From NCBI GenBank assembly GCA_029891345.1, contig CM057003.1, positions 14,052,709-14,116,708 of the forward strand: DNA of 64,000 nt. The letters run 5' to 3'. The first letter of the stretch is position 1. Each line of letters begins with the position of its first letter. Origin of the DNA: Dryococelus australis (Eukaryota; Arthropoda; Insecta; Phasmatodea; Phasmatidae). Of this stretch, positions 8,579 through 63,799 are shown in pieces. The notes under the pieces are model-generated. The model saw only the letters and a program-made list of their open reading frames with translations. It made no database searches and was not told the origin of the DNA. The position numbers and the translations under genes were made by a program.

Positions 8579-9098
8579 TAAACCGCTGCAAATGCGCAAT
8601 GTAAAGCCTCTGTTAGACCAAAGCGAACCCCCAAACTCCTCGAGGTACCGCTGGATATGCGCAACGTATAGCTTCTGTTAGCCCAAGGGAAATCCCACCT
8701 CCTCGTGGTACCGCTGGATATGCGCAATGTATAGCCTCTCTTAGCCCAATGGAACCCCCACCTCCTCGTGGTACCGCTTGATATGCGCGATGTATAGCCT
8801 CTCTTAGCCCAATGGAACCCCCACCTCCTCGTGGTACCGCTTGATATGCGCGATGTATAGCCTCTCTTAGCCCAATGGAACCCCCACCTCCTCGTGGTAC
8901 CGCTTGATATGCGCGATGTATAGCCTCTGCTAGCCCATGGGAACCCCCCACCTCTTCGTGGTACTGCTGGATATGCGCAATGTATAACCTCTGCTAGCCC
9001 ATGGGAACCCCCTACCTCTTCGTGGTACTGCTGAATATGCGCAATGTATGACCTCTGCTAACTCAAAGGTACCCCCACCTTCTCGTGGTACCGCTTGG
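8579..9098 (+). repeat. Minisatellite, 63-64-bp unit, about 8 copies
   Basis: The landmark CGTGGTACCGCTTGATATGC recurs with its G at 8642, 8705, 8768, 8831, 8894, 8958, 9022 and 9085, giving spacings of 63, 63, 63, 63, 64, 64 and 63. The array starts just past SINE S2. Because 63 is a multiple of three, a repetitive open frame of 112 residues appears on the minus strand; it is a by-product. Confidence 0.96.
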
Positions 9099-9230
9099 TG
9101 ACCTCATAGGCCTAGGGGTCAGCAAATCGTGGGATACTACCGGGCCTTCCCAATGCCAGTGGCTCGGAAGTGGATGAAAACCTCTAAGGGTGCAGGGGCA
9201 ATATTATGAGGGATACTAACCTTGTATCCA

Positions 9231-9502
9231 GTAGGGCTTGTAGCCGTAGAAGGCCATCCTGAAGGGCTTGTAGCCGTAGAAGGCCATCCTGAAGGGCTTG
9301 CAGCCGTAGAAGGCCATCCTGAAGGGCTTGTAGCCGTAGAAGGCCATCCTGAAGGGCTTGTAGCCGTAGAAGGCCATTCTGAAGGGCTTGCAGCCGTAGA
9401 AGGCCATCCTGAAGGGCTTGTAGCCGTAGAAGGCCATCCTGAAGGGCTTGTAGCCGTAGAAGGCCATCCTGAAGGGCTTGCAGCCGTAGAAGGCCATCCT
9501 GA
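9231..9502 (+). repeat. Minisatellite, 30-bp unit in a 90-bp higher-order pattern
   Basis: Nine units of 30 bp carry TAGCCGTAGAAGGCCATCCT or its CAGCC variant, starting at 9241, 9271 and so on to 9481. The first base follows T,T,C,T,T,C,T,T,C, so the true period is 90 bp and a triplet was amplified. Long repetitive open frames in four frames (up to 162 residues) are artefacts of a 30-bp period without stops. Confidence 0.97.
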
Positions 9503-9966
9503 ACTACAAATAGTCCATATATATATCTCAAAGCTGCACTGTATTCGACATAATAATGATCCCAAAGTATATTCTTACTGTACATCACAGCGTACTGTCT
9601 TAATTCCAGTGATGGCTTTACAGCCGGGGACTGGAGCAATAAACAACCCTTGTTCATTTTGTTGATGTACAAGGTTAATTCGTCGCCGAATTTTTACCGA
9701 TTGCAGTCATTTGTTGTTCAAATAGAACAGGTTTAGTAAATAGATCAAACGACATTCTTCTATGTTTCGCTCCGTTCCGAGTTGCTGATATGTAGTGAAC
9801 AGGCAGCGTGATTAAGGTAAGTGAAATTGGCGGCATTTTCTTCATTCATATAAATATATTTAAGTTCAAGACAGAACCAATATTAATTATACATGCTAGG
9901 CCTACTACAGTCAAAAGAAGGTAAGTTGTTGCCAAGTGTAAAAAATACTCAACATTTATGAAACAG
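9503..9966. other. Unique-looking spacer
   Basis: AT-rich sequence between the 30-bp array and SINE S3. Nothing recognisable. Confidence 0.5.
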
Positions 9967-16104: not shown

Positions 16105-17046
16105 CGATGTATGTTATAATGGATGATATGGTCGTGGAGTTAGGGGCGAGTTTTATACATGTGAGAGTGGTCTGATGGTCACTAAGAACGCTCTGTCGCT
16201 GAGTTTGGATGTATCCTAGGTCATTGACTCAAAGGTGTCTCGAGGTGAGGAATAGGGACTTTACCGTCTACGAGGTTGGTACTCTCTTTCCAGGAAACAC
16301 GTGCCATTAGCAGGCTCAGGTGGATGTCTGTTGCTGTAGTGCCTGCTTATCTTGACGTGTCATCTTAGCAAACAGAGGACAAGAAGTTCCCAGTAGAGCG
16401 GTCAGGTACGGGAGAAGCGAAGCAAAGTGGCCGCTATATAGTTGCGCATTTTCCAACCTGCTTAAACCGCCTGGGTTTCGTCTTTTACGCGCACAGCAAA
16501 AGGACAAATTTTAGCTGAATAATAAACAGGACTGTATACTTTCTGATTCAGTGTTATTCGTGTTTAAATATAAGTGAAATTCTCATTCTTTGATACTTTC
16601 TAGCTTAGTTGTTACCCGTGTTTCAATATAAATGAAATTATTTGTAGTAACTGGGTTATTCTCCCAGAAATCCTGTTGCTATACGAGACACCTAAAAAAA
16701 TCATGAAGTTCGCTTAAAATACCTCTTAAATACAAAATATTTGGAAAACCGAGAATGATTTGTGTGGTGAAATTATATTTTTTGTATAATAGATTTGCGT
16801 CATTTAGTCGCTTCTTTGATTCAATTTGCAGGAAATCTGTATTTTCATTACGCACTTGTAATTTTTTCAGTTAGCATATAGGTTTTATAAAAGGCCGACT
16901 TTGCTTCATGCCCGTTCTAATCAATTCTGTAGTATAGAAAAATAATCGTTTTCTAAAATGATATTTTTGTGATCATTATTGACACAATCACTTGCGACAT
17001 GATCTTCAACTCAATGGTGCGAACACACGCAATGATTACGTTTGAT
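16105..17046. other. AT-rich spacer
   Basis: Nothing recognisable apart from short open frames without motifs. It leads into the 34-bp array. Confidence 0.45.
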
Positions 17047-17322
17047 ACAGTTATAGCCGTATTTAAACCACAAGTAAAATACAGTTATAGCCGTATTTAA
17101 ACCACAAGTAAAATACAGTTATAGCCGTATTTAAACCACAAGTAAAATACAGTTATAGGCGTATTTAAACCACAAGTAAAATACAGTTATAGCCGTATTT
17201 AAACCACAAGTAAAATACAGTTATAGCCGTATTTAAACAACAAGTAAAATACAGTTATAGCCATATTTAAACCACAAGTAAAATACAGTTATAGCCGTAT
17301 TTAAACCACAAGTAAAATACAG
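17047..17322 (+). repeat. Minisatellite, 34-bp unit, 8 copies
   Basis: ACAGTTATAGCCGTATTTAA plus CCACAAGTAAAAT repeats exactly every 34 bp from 17047 (17081, 17115, 17149, 17183, 17217, 17251, 17285). Only single-base variants mark units 4, 6 and 7, so the array is young or well homogenised. Confidence 0.98.
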
Positions 17323-17527
17323 CTAATTTTACAACACTTTACTCTGACGTGTGCAAAACATGAACGGAAATCTTACTAGTAAGTCTTCGAGTTTATCACA
17401 ACCGTCGGGATACATAAGCAATTTCGTGTGTTTCATATAAGAATATGCTGCTGCGTGTGAAATAATTAACGAAGTGCGACAAGAAATAATTCGACAACTA
17501 GTTTCAAAAGAACTATTGGTAACGCAG

Positions 17528-44064: not shown

Positions 44065-44938
44065 GCAGCCATGCTTACTGTTGGAAACAGCTCGTAATAT
44101 CTTTTGTTGTTTGAAATGTTAAAATGATGCGTTTTAATGGCGTTGATATCCTTACTGTCATAAGAACTGTCAATTACTGGTTACAGAGGCAACGATAGCT
44201 TCACTTGACCTCGGCATTTTTTTTTCTTCCCCTGTGCAGTTCTGTAACAATTCTCGTGCGTACTTTCTTTTAACAGTGTACTCCCCTCCTGCGGCCACAT
44301 CTTTCACAATACCCTTTGTCAAAGAAAAACGAATCTACAGCGCCAGCCAGGAGGTAAGGCAAGCGCAGAACGACACCGTTATTTACAAAACTGCAAAGAG
44401 GGGAGCCTGTTCTGTAGTGTTTGCTCGTCATACGTTATTTGGATTGGTAGTCAGTTTTGTCTTCCACGGGCAAGCTATTTATCTGCAAGCCTGAATGGTG
44501 TTTGCGTAGATGATTGAAACCCAAAAACCAGCAGCGAACAAACGAAAGAAAGTAATCTTCACCAACTTCTCTCTTCTGGGTTTACGTGGCCATTTTAATA
44601 AAGACGTTCCTACTCCTCCTTTGTTCATAATGTAATTTTGTTTCCTACGTCATAAATTCCACGCAGTATTGCAATTATTTCCTCCCTCCTTCAACCATTT
44701 TCAGCCTTAGGATATCTAGATATTATGACAGGTAATCGCGGTCCCAGTCGCTGTAGTGCTTACCCAATCACGAAATTGGCTATGGACGATGAGAAAATCT
44801 GAGAGTACAAGGGCAGAATGCTTTAATAATTGACTGTCCTGAAAATTCTGACCCCTTCAATAAGTTCAGAACTCTGAAGGCGAATTAGGTACCGAAGTTC
44901 AACGTTCTTTTTGTGAGCGAGTGCGCATTGCGGCTGCA
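44065..44938. other. Spacer without recognised genes
   Basis: An 86-residue frame at 44234-44494 lacks motifs. Composition is average. It ends where the inverted duplication arm starts. Confidence 0.45.
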
Positions 44939-45429
44939 GTTATAATATTTAATTTATAGTTTCTACGAATGAAAACAAAGAGAAAAAAAGGTGTATTGAT
45001 ATTGCCTAGTAAGAAATAGTTCTCATGAAAAATATTATTTACCTGAGTGTGCAAGATTGAGGTGCGTTGTACATTTGATGTAATTTTCTAGACTTTGGTT
45101 GAATTTTTTTTTTTTTTTAACACTACGTTGTATTTGTAGATAGGAAAATTTCGTGAGTTCACTGACCCGTTGGCTAGACTCCACAGTCCTATGTACACTA
45201 GAGCCTCAGATGTTTGTTCATTGGCTGCTGTCCCAGAGAGTAGCCAGTGTTACCCCACACATGACAGTATGGGATTCGCTACTTGTTTCCTTGCCAATCT
45301 GCTGTTGATCCAGATTCGTCTGAAGGCGTGTCTAAGAAACTGTGATACAATGGCAAAGGTGATTTCAGTGTACATGTGTTTGAAGTCTATCCTGTCCTGA
45401 AACGAAATCGCGAAATTTTGGTATCTCTA
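44939..45429 (+). repeat. Inverted duplication, arm 1 (C fragment plus E2)
   Basis: It matches the inverse complement of 49228-49721 throughout. 44939-45128 is part of a C-family element; the rest is the E element at 45137-45429. Conceptual translations across the E part are nearly identical in the two arms, so divergence is low compared with other E copies. Confidence 0.93.
45137..45429 (+). mobile_element. hAT-like MITE, E family, copy E2
   Basis: Starts TAGATAGGAAAATTTCG and ends TTTTGGTATCTCTA. TGTATTTG is duplicated perfectly on both sides (45129-45136, 45430-45437), establishing an 8-bp target duplication for family E. It is inserted in the C fragment. Non-coding. Confidence 0.95.
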
Positions 45430-46669: not shown

Positions 46670-46760
46670 TAGGGACACCCGAATTTTGCGAAAAAAATTT
46701 CCGCACATGTTATGTTTAAATTCCTTACGGGCGTACTAGCATTTTCATTTTGCTTATTGG

Positions 46761-47025
46761 TAGAGACATGCAAAATTTGCGTTATCATTTGGGGACATGT
46801 CAAACTTGAAACACATAACTTATGTGACACGCCCTGGGTTACTCTGAACCGATAAAGGAACACTATACTATCGTCTGCCCAATCACTTGTAGCTCAGTCA
46901 GAGAGGGAGTGTCTTCGCATCTATGCTTCAGCCAATGGAGAAACGACGCTGGCTGGCTCTTGTGCCTACAGTACTGTGAAGTTCAGCCTGACGCCAAACA
47001 ATGACGCGAAATTTGCATGTCCCTA
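46761..47025 (-). mobile_element. hAT-like MITE, F family, copy F1, nested in G1
   Basis: TAGAGACATGCAAAATTTGC to AATTTGCATGTCCCTA. Flanks CTTATTGG (46753-46760) and CTTACTGG (47026-47033), 7 of 8. Interior AGCCAATGGAGAAACGACGC in inverse orientation to F2. The target is itself an ATTGG motif of the host G element. Confidence 0.93.
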
Positions 47026-47161
47026 CTTACTGGCGGCGTGTCTTTGTGAGAAGACATTTTCCTACTCGGTTGGTCGATCGGAATTAGGTAACTCCAGTAC
47101 TGCAAGCTTGTGATTCGTGCGAAGACACCTGGGACGCGCAACACTGAAAACATCCAATCAC

Positions 47162-47461
47162 TAGGGCCACCTGATTTTCGCGAAAAGATTCACGCGAAGA
47201 AGGCTAGACTCCAACGTCCCGTGGCATACGTGCAGTTTACCTTCGGTTATTGGCCACGTGTCTTTGTCGCGGGACACAGTTCCTTCCTTGACTGGACCAA
47301 TCAGAATCAGGTAACTCCAACACTGGGTGTCCGTGATTCACGGGCAAACACCTTGCAATACGTGACAGTTAAACTCACCCAATCACGAGAGTGGATATAA
47401 GTTCTTGTGTTTTGGAGTACAATTGGTCCTGAAATCTTTTCGCGAAAAACAGGTGGCCCTA
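47162..47461 (+). mobile_element. hAT-like MITE, G family, copy G2, nested in G1
   Basis: TAGGGCCACCTGATTTTCGC to AAAAACAGGTGGCCCTA with perfect 8-bp duplications CCAATCAC (47154-47161, 47462-47469). 300 bp. Interior TCGGTTATTGGCCACGTGTC and GGACCAATCAGAATCAGG. Here too the target is a CCAAT box of the host element. Confidence 0.96.
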
Positions 47462-47501
47462 CCAATCACGCAAGTGGATGTCCCTAGTTATTTTTTTTAT
47501 C

Positions 47502-49227: not shown

Positions 49228-49522
49228 TAGGGATAGGAAAATTTCGCGATTTCGTTTCAGGACAAGATAGACTTCAAACACGTGTACACTGAAATTACCT
49301 TTCCCATTGGCTCACAGTTTCTTAGACACGCCTTCGGACGAATCTGAATCAACAGCAGATTGGCAAGGAAACAAGTAGCGAATCCCATACTGTCATGTGT
49401 GGAGTAACACTGGCTACTCTCTGGGACAGTAGCCAATGAGCAAACATCTGAGGCTCTCGAGTACATAGGACTGTGGAGTCTAGCCAACAGGTCAGTGAAC
49501 TCGCGAAATTTTCCTATATCTA
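49228..49522 (-). mobile_element. hAT-like MITE, E family, copy E3 (in inverted duplication arm 2)
   Basis: TAGGGATAGGAAAATTTCGC at the left, ending TTCCTATATCTA. CAAATACA (49523-49530) equals the inner target copy of E2 read in reverse, but the outer side has ACTATGAC in place of a second copy. So the duplicated arm stops exactly at the outer tip of E3. It is part of arm 2, 49228-49721. Confidence 0.93.
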
Positions 49523-49721
49523 CAAATACAACGTAGCAGTTAAAAAAAAAAAATATTTCAACCAAAGTCTAGAAAATTACATCAAATGTACAACGCACCT
49601 CAATCTTGCACACTCAGTTAAATAATATTTTTCGCAAGAAGTATTTCTTACTAGGCAATATCAATACACCTTTTTTTCTCTTTGTTTTCATTCGTAGAAA
49701 TTATAAATTAAATATTATAAC

Positions 49722-50015
49722 TAGGGACCTGCAAAACTCGCGTTATTATTTGGCATCAGGCTAAACTTCATAGTACTGTGCAGACTCGAGCCGGCGTCGT
49801 TTCTCCATTGGTTGCCGCCTAGATGTGAAGTCACTCCCTTTCTGACTGAACTGCACGTGATTGGAGCACGCAATTGTGAAGTGTTCATTTATTGGCGCAG
49901 TGTTATTTGGGGCGTGTCAAATAAAGTACGGTCCAATCACAAACGTATTCCAAATGTATGTGTGTTTTAAGTTTAACGTGTCGTCAAATAATAACGCGAA
50001 TTTTGCAGGTCTGTA
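49722..50015 (+). mobile_element. hAT-like MITE, F family, copy F2
   Basis: TAGGGACCTGCAAAACTCGC to CGAATTTTGCAGGTCTGTA, 294 bp. ATTATAAC is present at 49714-49721 and 50016-50023. Interior CGGCGTCGTTTCTCCATTGG and GTCCAATCACAAACG. It is immediately followed by G4 across one shared target copy. Confidence 0.95.
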
Positions 50016-50023
50016 ATTATAAC

Positions 50024-50317
50024 TAGGGACACCTTAATTTTGCGAAAATATTTCCTCACGTGATAGATTTCAATACTATACGGACGTACCAGCAGTTGTC
50101 TTTTGCTTATTGGTGGTGTGTATTTGTGATAAGCCACTTTCTTGTTTGACTGGCCAATCAGAATCAGCTAACTTCAGGACTGTACGTCTGTGATTCGGGC
50201 GCAGATACTTCTAGACGCGTAACACACAAACCATCCAACCAGGAAACTGGATCTGAGCTATGGTGCTATGAAATACAACTGGTCGTGAAAGCTTTTCGCA
50301 AAATTCGGGTGTCCCTA
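50024..50317 (+). mobile_element. hAT-like MITE, G family, copy G4
   Basis: TAGGGACACCTTAATTTTGC to AAATTCGGGTGTCCCTA, 294 bp. ATTATAAC flanks it at 50016-50023 and 50318-50325, so the order is target-F2-target-G4-target. Interior TGGCCAATCAGAATCAGC and GTCTGTGATTCGGGCG. Confidence 0.95.
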
Positions 50318-50504
50318 ATTATAACTTATAAATAGAATATAAACTATTGTTCTGTTTAAACAAAAAAATATATGCTTTTATGTTAACGGGAGTATGAAAG
50401 ATTGTGTTAGATGTCATGTTTGTGAAACAACCAAACACGTCATACGTGAGGTGATTTTTCAAAGGTTTTGTTTAAAAAGTGTAAAGTGATTGCGAACAGG
50501 CTAC

Positions 50505-61289: not shown

Positions 61290-61579
61290 TAGAGACCTGC
61301 AAATTTCGCGTTATTGTTTGATGACAGAATAGATTTTGAAGGGTGATACATTTCTATTGGTTTTATTATTGCGCCACAGTTTGCCTGACACATCCCGGAC
61401 CTATTTGAACCAATTAGAAAAAAATTATCGACAGCATGGGCCAATTGCGTCCAACCAAGTCGAAAGGGAAAATGGAACGTGACTTCTATGGAAGCCAATA
61501 AACAAATGACGGCGACTGTACATATGACTGTGAAGTTCATGGTGCAGTCACAAAAAGACGCGAATTTTGCAGGTCCCTA
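61290..61579 (-). mobile_element. hAT-like MITE, F family, copy F3
   Basis: TAGAGACCTGCAAATTTCGC to CGAATTTTGCAGGTCCCTA, 290 bp with good ends. Flanking 8-mers ACCACAGC and GTCATGGC differ only by transitions, so a worn target duplication is possible. Diverged interior with three CCAAT motifs. Confidence 0.85.
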
Positions 61580-61882: not shown

Positions 61883-62029
61883 GTCCAAACCACTCCACTA
61901 TTTTCTGTTCGCGAGTCAATTACAATGCGCGAAACTTAGTACGATTACATTTTTCCCTGCAAATGCTTGAGTTTTTGGCTGTCAACGAACCAGAGCATTT
62001 GATTGTGCAAGTCTCCCTATAGAAATGAG

Positions 62030-62327
62030 TTGAGACATGCAAAATACACGTTATTTTTCGGCATCAGGCTAAACTTCACAGTACTGTATGTACTGGAGCC
62101 GGCGTCGTTTCTCTATTGGTTGTTGCATAGATGTGAAGCCACGCCCTCTCTGTCTGACTGACCTGCATGTGATTGAGGCACACAATTGTGAAGTGATCAT
62201 TTATAGGCGTAGAGTTACCCACGGCGTATCAGAAAAAGTATGGTCCAATATCAAATATATTGCAGAGGTACAAGTGTTTAAAGATTAACGTGTCCTCAAA
62301 TAATAACGCAAATTCTTCACGTCTCCA
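62030..62327 (+). mobile_element. hAT-like MITE, F family, copy F4
   Basis: TTGAGACATGCAAAATACAC to TTCTTCACGTCTCCA. Left target GAAATGAG (62022-62029); right GTAATGAC (62328-62335), 6 of 8. Interior CCGGCGTCGTTTCTCTATTG as in F2. It is followed directly by G3. Confidence 0.92.
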
Positions 62328-62335
62328 GTAATGAC

Positions 62336-62622
62336 TAGGGATACCCGAATTTCGAGAAAAGATTTCACGGTCAGTTGTATTTTAGAACTTTTTAGCTCAG
62401 ATCACCTCTCTTGATTGGCTGATGTAGGTGTTACACGCCTAAGGCGTGTGCTCGCGAATCACAAACGTACAGGATCGGAGTTAACTAATTCTGATTGGCC
62501 CCTCAAGGAAGAACATGTCTTCTCTTAAAGGCTCATGGCCAATAAGCATATGAAAACTGACGGTACGCCGGTAGGCTATTGAAATCTAGCAGAAATCTTT
62601 TCGCGAAATTCGGGTGTCCCTG
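62336..62622 (-). mobile_element. hAT-like MITE, G family, copy G3
   Basis: TAGGGATACCCGAATTTCGA to AAATTCGGGTGTCCCTG. Right target GAAATGAG (62623-62630) equals the left target of F4, so F4 and G3 occupy one original site in the order target-F-target-G-target, as at 49.7-50.3 kb. Interior inverse to G4. Confidence 0.93.
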
Positions 62623-62637
62623 GAAATGAGTTATTAT

Positions 62638-62883
62638 TAGAAACCTGAAGAATTCGTGTATTCATTTCGGGACAAGCTAAAATTCAAAACACGTGTATCT
62701 GTATAAGCTTAGCTATTGGTCCACATGGTGTGTGTTTGACACCTCTTGGGGAACAGAGGCCCAATCGTATCATTCCATTGTGACAGCAGACAACCAATGT
62801 GCAGTTAATATCGGCATATTAGTACATAAGATTGTAGAGTCTAGCCTGCAGGTCATTGAACTCGAGAATTTTCCAGTTCTCTA
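62638..62883 (-). mobile_element. hAT-like MITE, E family, copy E7
   Basis: TAGAAACCTGAAGAATTCGT to TTTTCCAGTTCTCTA; flanks GTTATTAT (62630-62637) and ATTATTAT (62884-62891), 7 of 8. Its left target overlaps the right target of G3 by one base. Diverged interior. Confidence 0.88.
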
Positions 62884-63799
62884 ATTATTATAGGCTGTTC
62901 ACTTTTGGACCATACCTCCGAAAATAAAACACTGCTACTATGGGTGTGTTCGATTTCAGTGCAATTTGCCCTTGATCTCTTTATATGAAAAAATCAATTA
63001 GTAAATGTGTCTTTGTTACGTTTGCAAGTGTTTTCGTCCAACCGTGGAGAGTTGTAAACACAATGAAACTCAAACAAATGAAATATATTTCAAACAGTTG
63101 CGCATTGGAAAACTATCTAGGGCTCGAGAAGGGCGAGTCGCCCGCCCCGTCGGCTGAAGGGGACATTCTAGGGCGCGAAATGCGCCCTTGCTGTGAATTC
63201 GGACGGCGACAATGCGACGTCACATCCGGGATGCAGTTTTCAAGTGCACGCAGCCAGGTTAGGACCCCTTGGTTGGTGATTTCGATCACGGCCTGTATAC
63301 AGTTGTTTTAGCTCATCCGACGTTAACCTCTTTCCCTCCTCATTATTCATGCTCAACATTAGAATAATCTCTTGTGTGCTAATGTTAGGTTGTTATTAAT
63401 TCTCTTTTCCTCCTTATTGTGTGACTTCCTTTGCCTGATGCCCTTCAAAATCGTTATATCTTAAATGTCTCTTTTGCAGTAAACTGTTATGTTGTCTGTC
63501 ATAATTTATTAGCTACTGGTCATGTTTTTATATTTTTTTCTAAAGATCCCCAAACGAGCACTATATATATACTACGCTTGAAATGTGTACAAACTAATTT
63601 TTAAGTGCGTGTATAAACGAAATAAAAAATTAAAATATATTCACAACTACATACATAGATTGACACTTAGTGTTCTAGGTAAGTTGGCATCGCACTGATA
63701 AAAGTAGTCTAGTGTAATGTGTAACTTTATAGCCACTTGCGTTTGTATTTATTGTTTTATACGCATTCTAGTAATGAATCTGCATATTAGTAATAAATT
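62884..63799. other. Spacer with a TAGG end fragment
   Basis: TAGGCTGTTCACTTTTGGAC at about 62892 is an isolated TAGG terminus. 63.1-63.3 kb is GC-richer. The 108-residue frame at 62985-63311 has no recognised motif. The rest is AT-rich. Confidence 0.45.

Follow-up and report, generated by a model that had tools for sequence, protein, structure and literature searches.

How two small transposable elements of different families, F4 and G3, came to share one 8-bp target, with a third element, E7, starting 7 bp further on, was the question raised by one locus in a 64,000-nt stretch of the Dryococelus australis genome (the window, meaning the whole stretch of DNA that was analysed). Reading of the window sequence confirmed the layout and coordinates that had been described for F4, G3 and E7, namely GAAATGAG-F4-GTAATGAC-G3-GAAATGAG, followed by TTATTAT and then by E7 and ATTATTAT. 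All features of this stack were on the forward strand. By sequence reading and TSD comparison, the left target copy GAAATGAG was located at 62022–62029, followed by F4 (family F MITE, 298 bp, 62030–62327), the middle target copy GTAATGAC (62328–62335), G3 (family G MITE, 287 bp, 62336–62622) and the right target copy GAAATGAG (62623–62630). The final base of G3 was G, while most other G copies had A. The claim that F4 and G3 lay in one target was borne out by the outer copies, which were identical (8/8), and less well by the middle copy, which differed from them at two positions (6/8). The left target copy of E7, GTTATTAT (62630–62637), took its first base from the last base of the right GAAATGAG; the two targets thus overlapped by 1 bp, as had been proposed, and the distance between G3 and E7 was 15 bp (spacer GAAATGAGTTATTAT). 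E7 (family E MITE, TAGAGACCTGAA-type ends, 246 bp, 62638–62883) was followed by its right target copy ATTATTAT (62884–62891), which matched the left copy GTTATTAT at 7/8.

A sequence resembling the right end of an element, GCAAGTCTCCCTA (62007–62019), was present 2 bp to the left of the left GAAATGAG and is possibly an older further member of the stack. Window positions 61290–61579 had F-like ends at both borders, and the flanking 8-mers matched each other poorly.

A second pair in the window, at 49.7 kb, had the same arrangement with a different 8-mer, ATTATAAC, all three copies of which were identical (49714–49721, 50016–50023 and 50318–50325, forward strand). Its F occupied 49722–50015 on the forward strand and its G, the reverse of G3, 50024–50317 on the reverse strand. 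Alignment showed that F4 and the 49-kb F shared 80% identity in the same orientation, and that G3 and the 49-kb G shared 73% identity and were inverted relative to each other, as the earlier note had stated. No ORF of at least 100 aa was listed within the 62-kb or the 49.7-kb stack, and an Rfam search at gathering thresholds gave no match.

Several other arrangements were observed in the window. An inverted duplicate (44938–45429 and 49228–49722, 94% identity) had one border at the exact outer end of an E-type element and the other at ATTATAAC (plus T), the latter marking the left edge of the F at 49.7 kb. The E-type element had matching target copies, CAAATACA, at 45 kb only; its left neighbour at 49 kb was ACTATGAC. 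This suggests a rearrangement made by transposase. The 44.94-kb duplicate was rejected as an empty site of the 49.7-kb pair: it matched through ATTATAAC and carried neither F nor G, but its other side was unrelated, which made the match one-sided. At 46670–47486, a nested hAT-like cluster had one G as host to two elements, an F (46761–47025) at CTTATTGG/CTTACTGG and, at CCAATCAC, a G-like element with TAGGGCCACCTG ends (about 47162–47461); the host G was flanked by GTTATTTG/GTTATTTT. Tandem arrays were found at 546–971, 1125–1541, 8618–9139, 9196–9563 and 16977–17384, with units of about 61, 31, 63, 30 and 34 bp. An exon of a sodium-channel family gene, compared with the cockroach channel PaFPC1, gave no more than a loose alignment.

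The genome (3.4 Gb in 646 contigs, with the window in contig C11) was searched for similar pairs. Since a query with the whole stack favoured one order, patterns of the ends alone were adopted after it; these determined what kind of end sequence stood on either side of the spacer but left free which of the element's two ends supplied it. An F/E-type end and a G end faced each other with exactly 8 bp between them at 405 places with up to three mismatches (179 forward, 226 reverse), and the reversed-pattern control for this layout gave no place in the whole genome at the same threshold, so the 8-bp layout is more than chance. With exact F/E-type and G ends and spacers of 0–30 bp, 75 places were found genome-wide (reversed control, 1 per strand): 43 of them at 8 bp, 6 at 15 bp, and 1–4 at every other length that occurred. 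Exact ends 100–130 bp apart and 400–430 bp apart gave 11 places each, in 31 positions each (reversed controls 1 and 0), and the regional background was accordingly 22 matches in 62 positions, or 0.35 per position. F/E-type ends faced one another at 82 places (control 5); among the 50 listed, 22 were at 8 bp and 5 at 15 bp, and the 8-bp spacers had central AT in 16 of the 22 and lacked it in 6. Facing G ends were found at 7 places (2 at 8 bp, 1 at 9 bp and 4 at 3 bp). A looser first pattern matched 313 places against 222 in its reversed control, and with so high a control it is a weak test taken alone; the 50 places listed included 10 at 8 bp, 4 at 15 bp and 21 at 3 bp. The 3-bp spacers, mostly AAA/TTT between facing TAGGGAC ends (21 of those 50 and 4 of the 7 G–G places), look like a separate short palindromic repeat.

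Analysis of the spacers revealed that they were local. The 43 exact 8-bp spacers comprised 42 distinct 8-mers, all 43 with AT at the centre, and the 65 best-matching of the 405 places (at most one mismatch) had 60 distinct spacers. Five spacers were seen twice in these 65; for one of them, ACCATAGG, the two places lay 112 kb apart on contig C10 with the same end mismatch and are probably a single duplicated locus. For comparison with the flanks, 24 of the 43 exact loci, the two window pairs and four further junctions (two at L002, one each at L007 and L008) were used, giving 30 junctions. The outer 8-mer was obtained at 27 of them (L065, L069 and L071 were without a usable flank), giving 41 comparisons, with one at L002 counted from both sides. 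The spacer matched its own outer 8-mer at 8/8 in 17 comparisons, 7/8 in 8, 6/8 in 10, 5/8 in 4 and 3/8 in 2 (mean 6.78/8), whereas outer 8-mers compared with the spacers of other loci gave a mean of 3.87/8 (1189 comparisons), about 12% of them reaching 6/8 or more. The two 3/8 scores came from the left sides of L066 and L077, where the element end was probably misplaced. Since the spacers match their own flanking 8-mers and vary between loci, the spacer is a copy of the local target. Within each locus, inner and outer 8-mers were thus mutual copies, in the pattern X-A-X-B-X of serial insertion.

The stack query had fetched seven loci besides the window, and only L002, L007 and L008 had F and G 8 bp apart. 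At L008, all three 8-mers bordering F and G were TTGATAAC; L007 had the 8-mers CTTATAAC, CTCTTGAC and CTCATGAG, and L002 was a longer stack, CCTATAAC-F-CCAATGAG-G-CGAATAAG-E-CGAATAAG. L004 was also an F-G-E stack, with its F-G joint deleted; its E was preceded by CCTATAAC and followed by CCATTTCC (about 4/8), and stood outside the 41 comparisons. A third F-G-E stack was L059, the first element of which was F-like by its ends only. At L003, L005 and L006, F and G were about 18–23 bp apart.

Order and orientation were mixed. At the 24 loci fetched, the spacer was preceded by a forward F in 8, a reverse F in 6, a reverse E in 5, a forward E in 1 and an unassigned element in 4; it was followed by a G, forward in 11, reverse in 12 and unassigned in 1. 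The constant order F then G, to which the earlier note had given weight as evidence, is therefore uninformative: it had been suggested by the stack query, which selected for it, and was gone in the end-pattern sample. An apparent asymmetry between the two ends of F (13 versus 30 at a single diagnostic base, counted over the 65 best matches) was likewise set aside: F subfamilies differ at this position, and the 24-locus alignment gave 6 versus 8. Of 68 full-length F, G and E copies chosen by similarity alone, 4 (L039, L081, L086 and L105) were flagged for a TIR-like start lying outside them at a distance of exactly 8 bp; three were convincing by eye and L039 was doubtful. Among 29 F loci, leaving out that of the query itself, no clear case of a stacked neighbour was found.

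Comparison of target duplications in the 68 full-length copies showed TSDs matching at 5/8 or better in 58, perfect in 25 and below 5/8 in 10. The 58 gave the consensus nnnATnnn for families F, G and E, with the central A and T each at 94–96% and weaker preferences around them. A second register was also present. At least 11 spacers of 15 bp were counted in the 75 exact pairs and the 50 listed F/E pairs; in the range of 9–30 bp, 19 other lengths together held 26. The second 8-mer had central AT in 12 of 15 listed 15-bp cases, those of the looser pattern included. In 26% of 90 outward flanks (45 solo sites), AT occupied outside positions 3–4, which lie seven bases from the central AT; shuffles (n = 500) gave a mean of 9% and a maximum of 20%. 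This fits the 15-bp peak. Thus 15 bp ranks as a second favoured spacing, in which two targets overlap by one base; G3-GAAATGAGTTATTAT-E7 belongs to this class, and the overlapping target of E7 is not incidental.

The reading that best accounts for these observations, and to which we give a probability of almost nine in ten, is that the stacks were built up where they stand, by insertions that used the same 8-mer again and again, each stack on its own target; the 62-kb pair appears to be one of many examples. F, G and E would be non-autonomous hAT-like MITEs with similar ends (TAGGGAC or TAGAGAC), which insert by cut and paste into 8-bp nnnATnnn targets and duplicate them. After a first insertion, the element would be bordered on both sides by an intact copy of a preferred target; a later arrival, whatever its family or orientation, could enter one copy and give X-A-X-B-X, and further rounds would give X-A-X-B-X-C-X. 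The weaker register 7 bp away, where AT recurs, would produce the 15-bp spacing with one-base target overlap seen between G3 and E7. The acting enzyme would be a hAT transposase, presumably a single one shared by the three families, and the insertions would have followed one another in time in this manner.

An addition to serial reuse, which we consider possible but distinctly doubtful, is that a resident element end, through bound transposase or the shape of the end, attracts insertions beyond the preference for the 8-mer. Self-enhancement calculated from the target matrix was 29 for F, about 64.5 for G and 33 for E, and 22.7 when flanks were included with the element end as one flank. From the background of 0.35 per position multiplied by 22.7–64.5, about 8–23 pairs at 8 bp were predicted by the target matrix, whereas 43 were observed (about 120 times background); moreover, the solo-site matrix rated the element end poorly as a flank (weight 0.29), and that end was used nonetheless. 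However, the background came from 22 matches only, the target matrices were built from 45 to 58 mutated sites and so understate the preference, and spacings of 9–30 bp outside 14–16 bp were themselves mildly raised (12 exact pairs in 19 positions, 0.63 versus 0.35). On a log scale, target reuse made up most of the effect and a 2- to 5-fold surplus at 8 bp remained, which may reflect end preference or an underestimated target preference. The repeated targeting of ends that the earlier note had proposed is better described as reuse of a preferred 8-mer, and preference for ends is at most this uncertain 2- to 5-fold residue. A fuller version, slightly less probable again, would combine real end preference with a phased, self-renewing target code (AT 7 bp apart, restored at each insertion) in an nnnATnnn group that is neither Ac nor Buster; if this is true, stacks would grow through reuse of one 8-mer or of its 7-bp neighbour.

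That F-spacer-G moves as one composite (a macrotransposon) by its outer F and G ends is very improbable. The 62-kb stack, with identical outer 8-mers and an inner one differing at two positions, has the form expected of a composite, L057 shows a weaker form of the same pattern, and several top matches had the same F-G or F-G-E order and orientation, but the query selected for that. Against it, spacers varied by locus and copied the local flanks, F and G each occurred in both orientations at the junction, and the 49-kb G ran opposite to G3. Across the whole class, neither a constant inner spacer nor a fixed order and orientation was found, and composite movement is refuted for the class by the locus-specific spacers and mixed orientation, in agreement with what had been argued from the two G copies. 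The 62-kb locus taken alone could be a composite insertion, because its middle copy matches at 6/8 and about 12% of control comparisons reach that score.

Segmental duplication of a single F-G block, in favour of which the same two families recur 12.3 kb apart within one window, can be dismissed for the two window pairs: their 400-bp flanks on both sides shared only matches of 11 and 13 bp (E 0.11 and 0.38), which are only chance, G was inverted between them and their target 8-mers were unlike. With flank homology sought for both pairs and absent beyond these matches, the proposal that they are not one duplicated block was upheld.

Serial reuse of a target is a kind of event already known; the target itself is unlike that of Ac or Buster hATs. 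F, G and E have the 8-bp target duplication of hAT-superfamily MITEs, together with short TIRs (ends such as TAGGGACCTGCA...TGCAGGTCTCTA), small size and lack of coding capacity; window and reference copies were 242–298 bp long. Their sites did not follow the Ac-group target nTnnnnAn, as T occupied position 2 in only 33–48%, or the Buster-group target nnnTAnnn, the central dinucleotide being AT and not TA. Hermes belongs to the Ac group of hATs. Its insertion is described as a cut-and-paste event at 8-bp targets with the pattern nTnnnnAn (PMC10368747); 8-bp targets and cut-and-paste insertion are thus common to Hermes and F/G/E, whereas the target of the latter is dominated by the central AT. 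Mar, a hAT MITE of Drosophila reported with an 8-bp TSD, short TIRs, a length of about 610 bp and the Buster target nnnTAnnn (PMC3517528), resembles F/G/E in the first two features, but F/G/E use nnnATnnn and are shorter than 300 bp. The target preference of the Tip group was described in one report as not having been investigated (PMC3942097). The nnnATnnn target with its echo 7 bp away may help to assign a hAT group.

Multimers produced by nested insertion or self-insertion, the reported self-insertion lying within the marker gene of the element (PMC4744444), also involve a strike on an existing insertion, whereas in the stacks the second element lies exactly in the flanking target copy. Macrotransposition as in P elements, proposed for an Anopheles MITE (PMC1562414), likewise treats two neighbouring elements as a unit, but the carried-along spacers that it predicts were absent here. 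No 8-bp target sharing between hAT MITEs was found in the titles and abstract openings searched, to which subscription literature mostly did not belong.

The locus-specific target copies in stacks are a natural record of repeated targeting, through which the site choice of a transposase, and any attraction to existing ends, can be measured from a genome alone. For repeat annotation they carry a warning, as adjoining MITEs 8 bp apart are not necessarily one composite. A close parallel in arrangement is the singed-weak P pair of Drosophila, whose two elements share an 8-bp target and are separated by a copy of it. Those elements belong to the P superfamily and their insertions are laboratory-era events, whereas the F/G/E stacks bring together hAT-like MITEs from different families and occupy many old loci.
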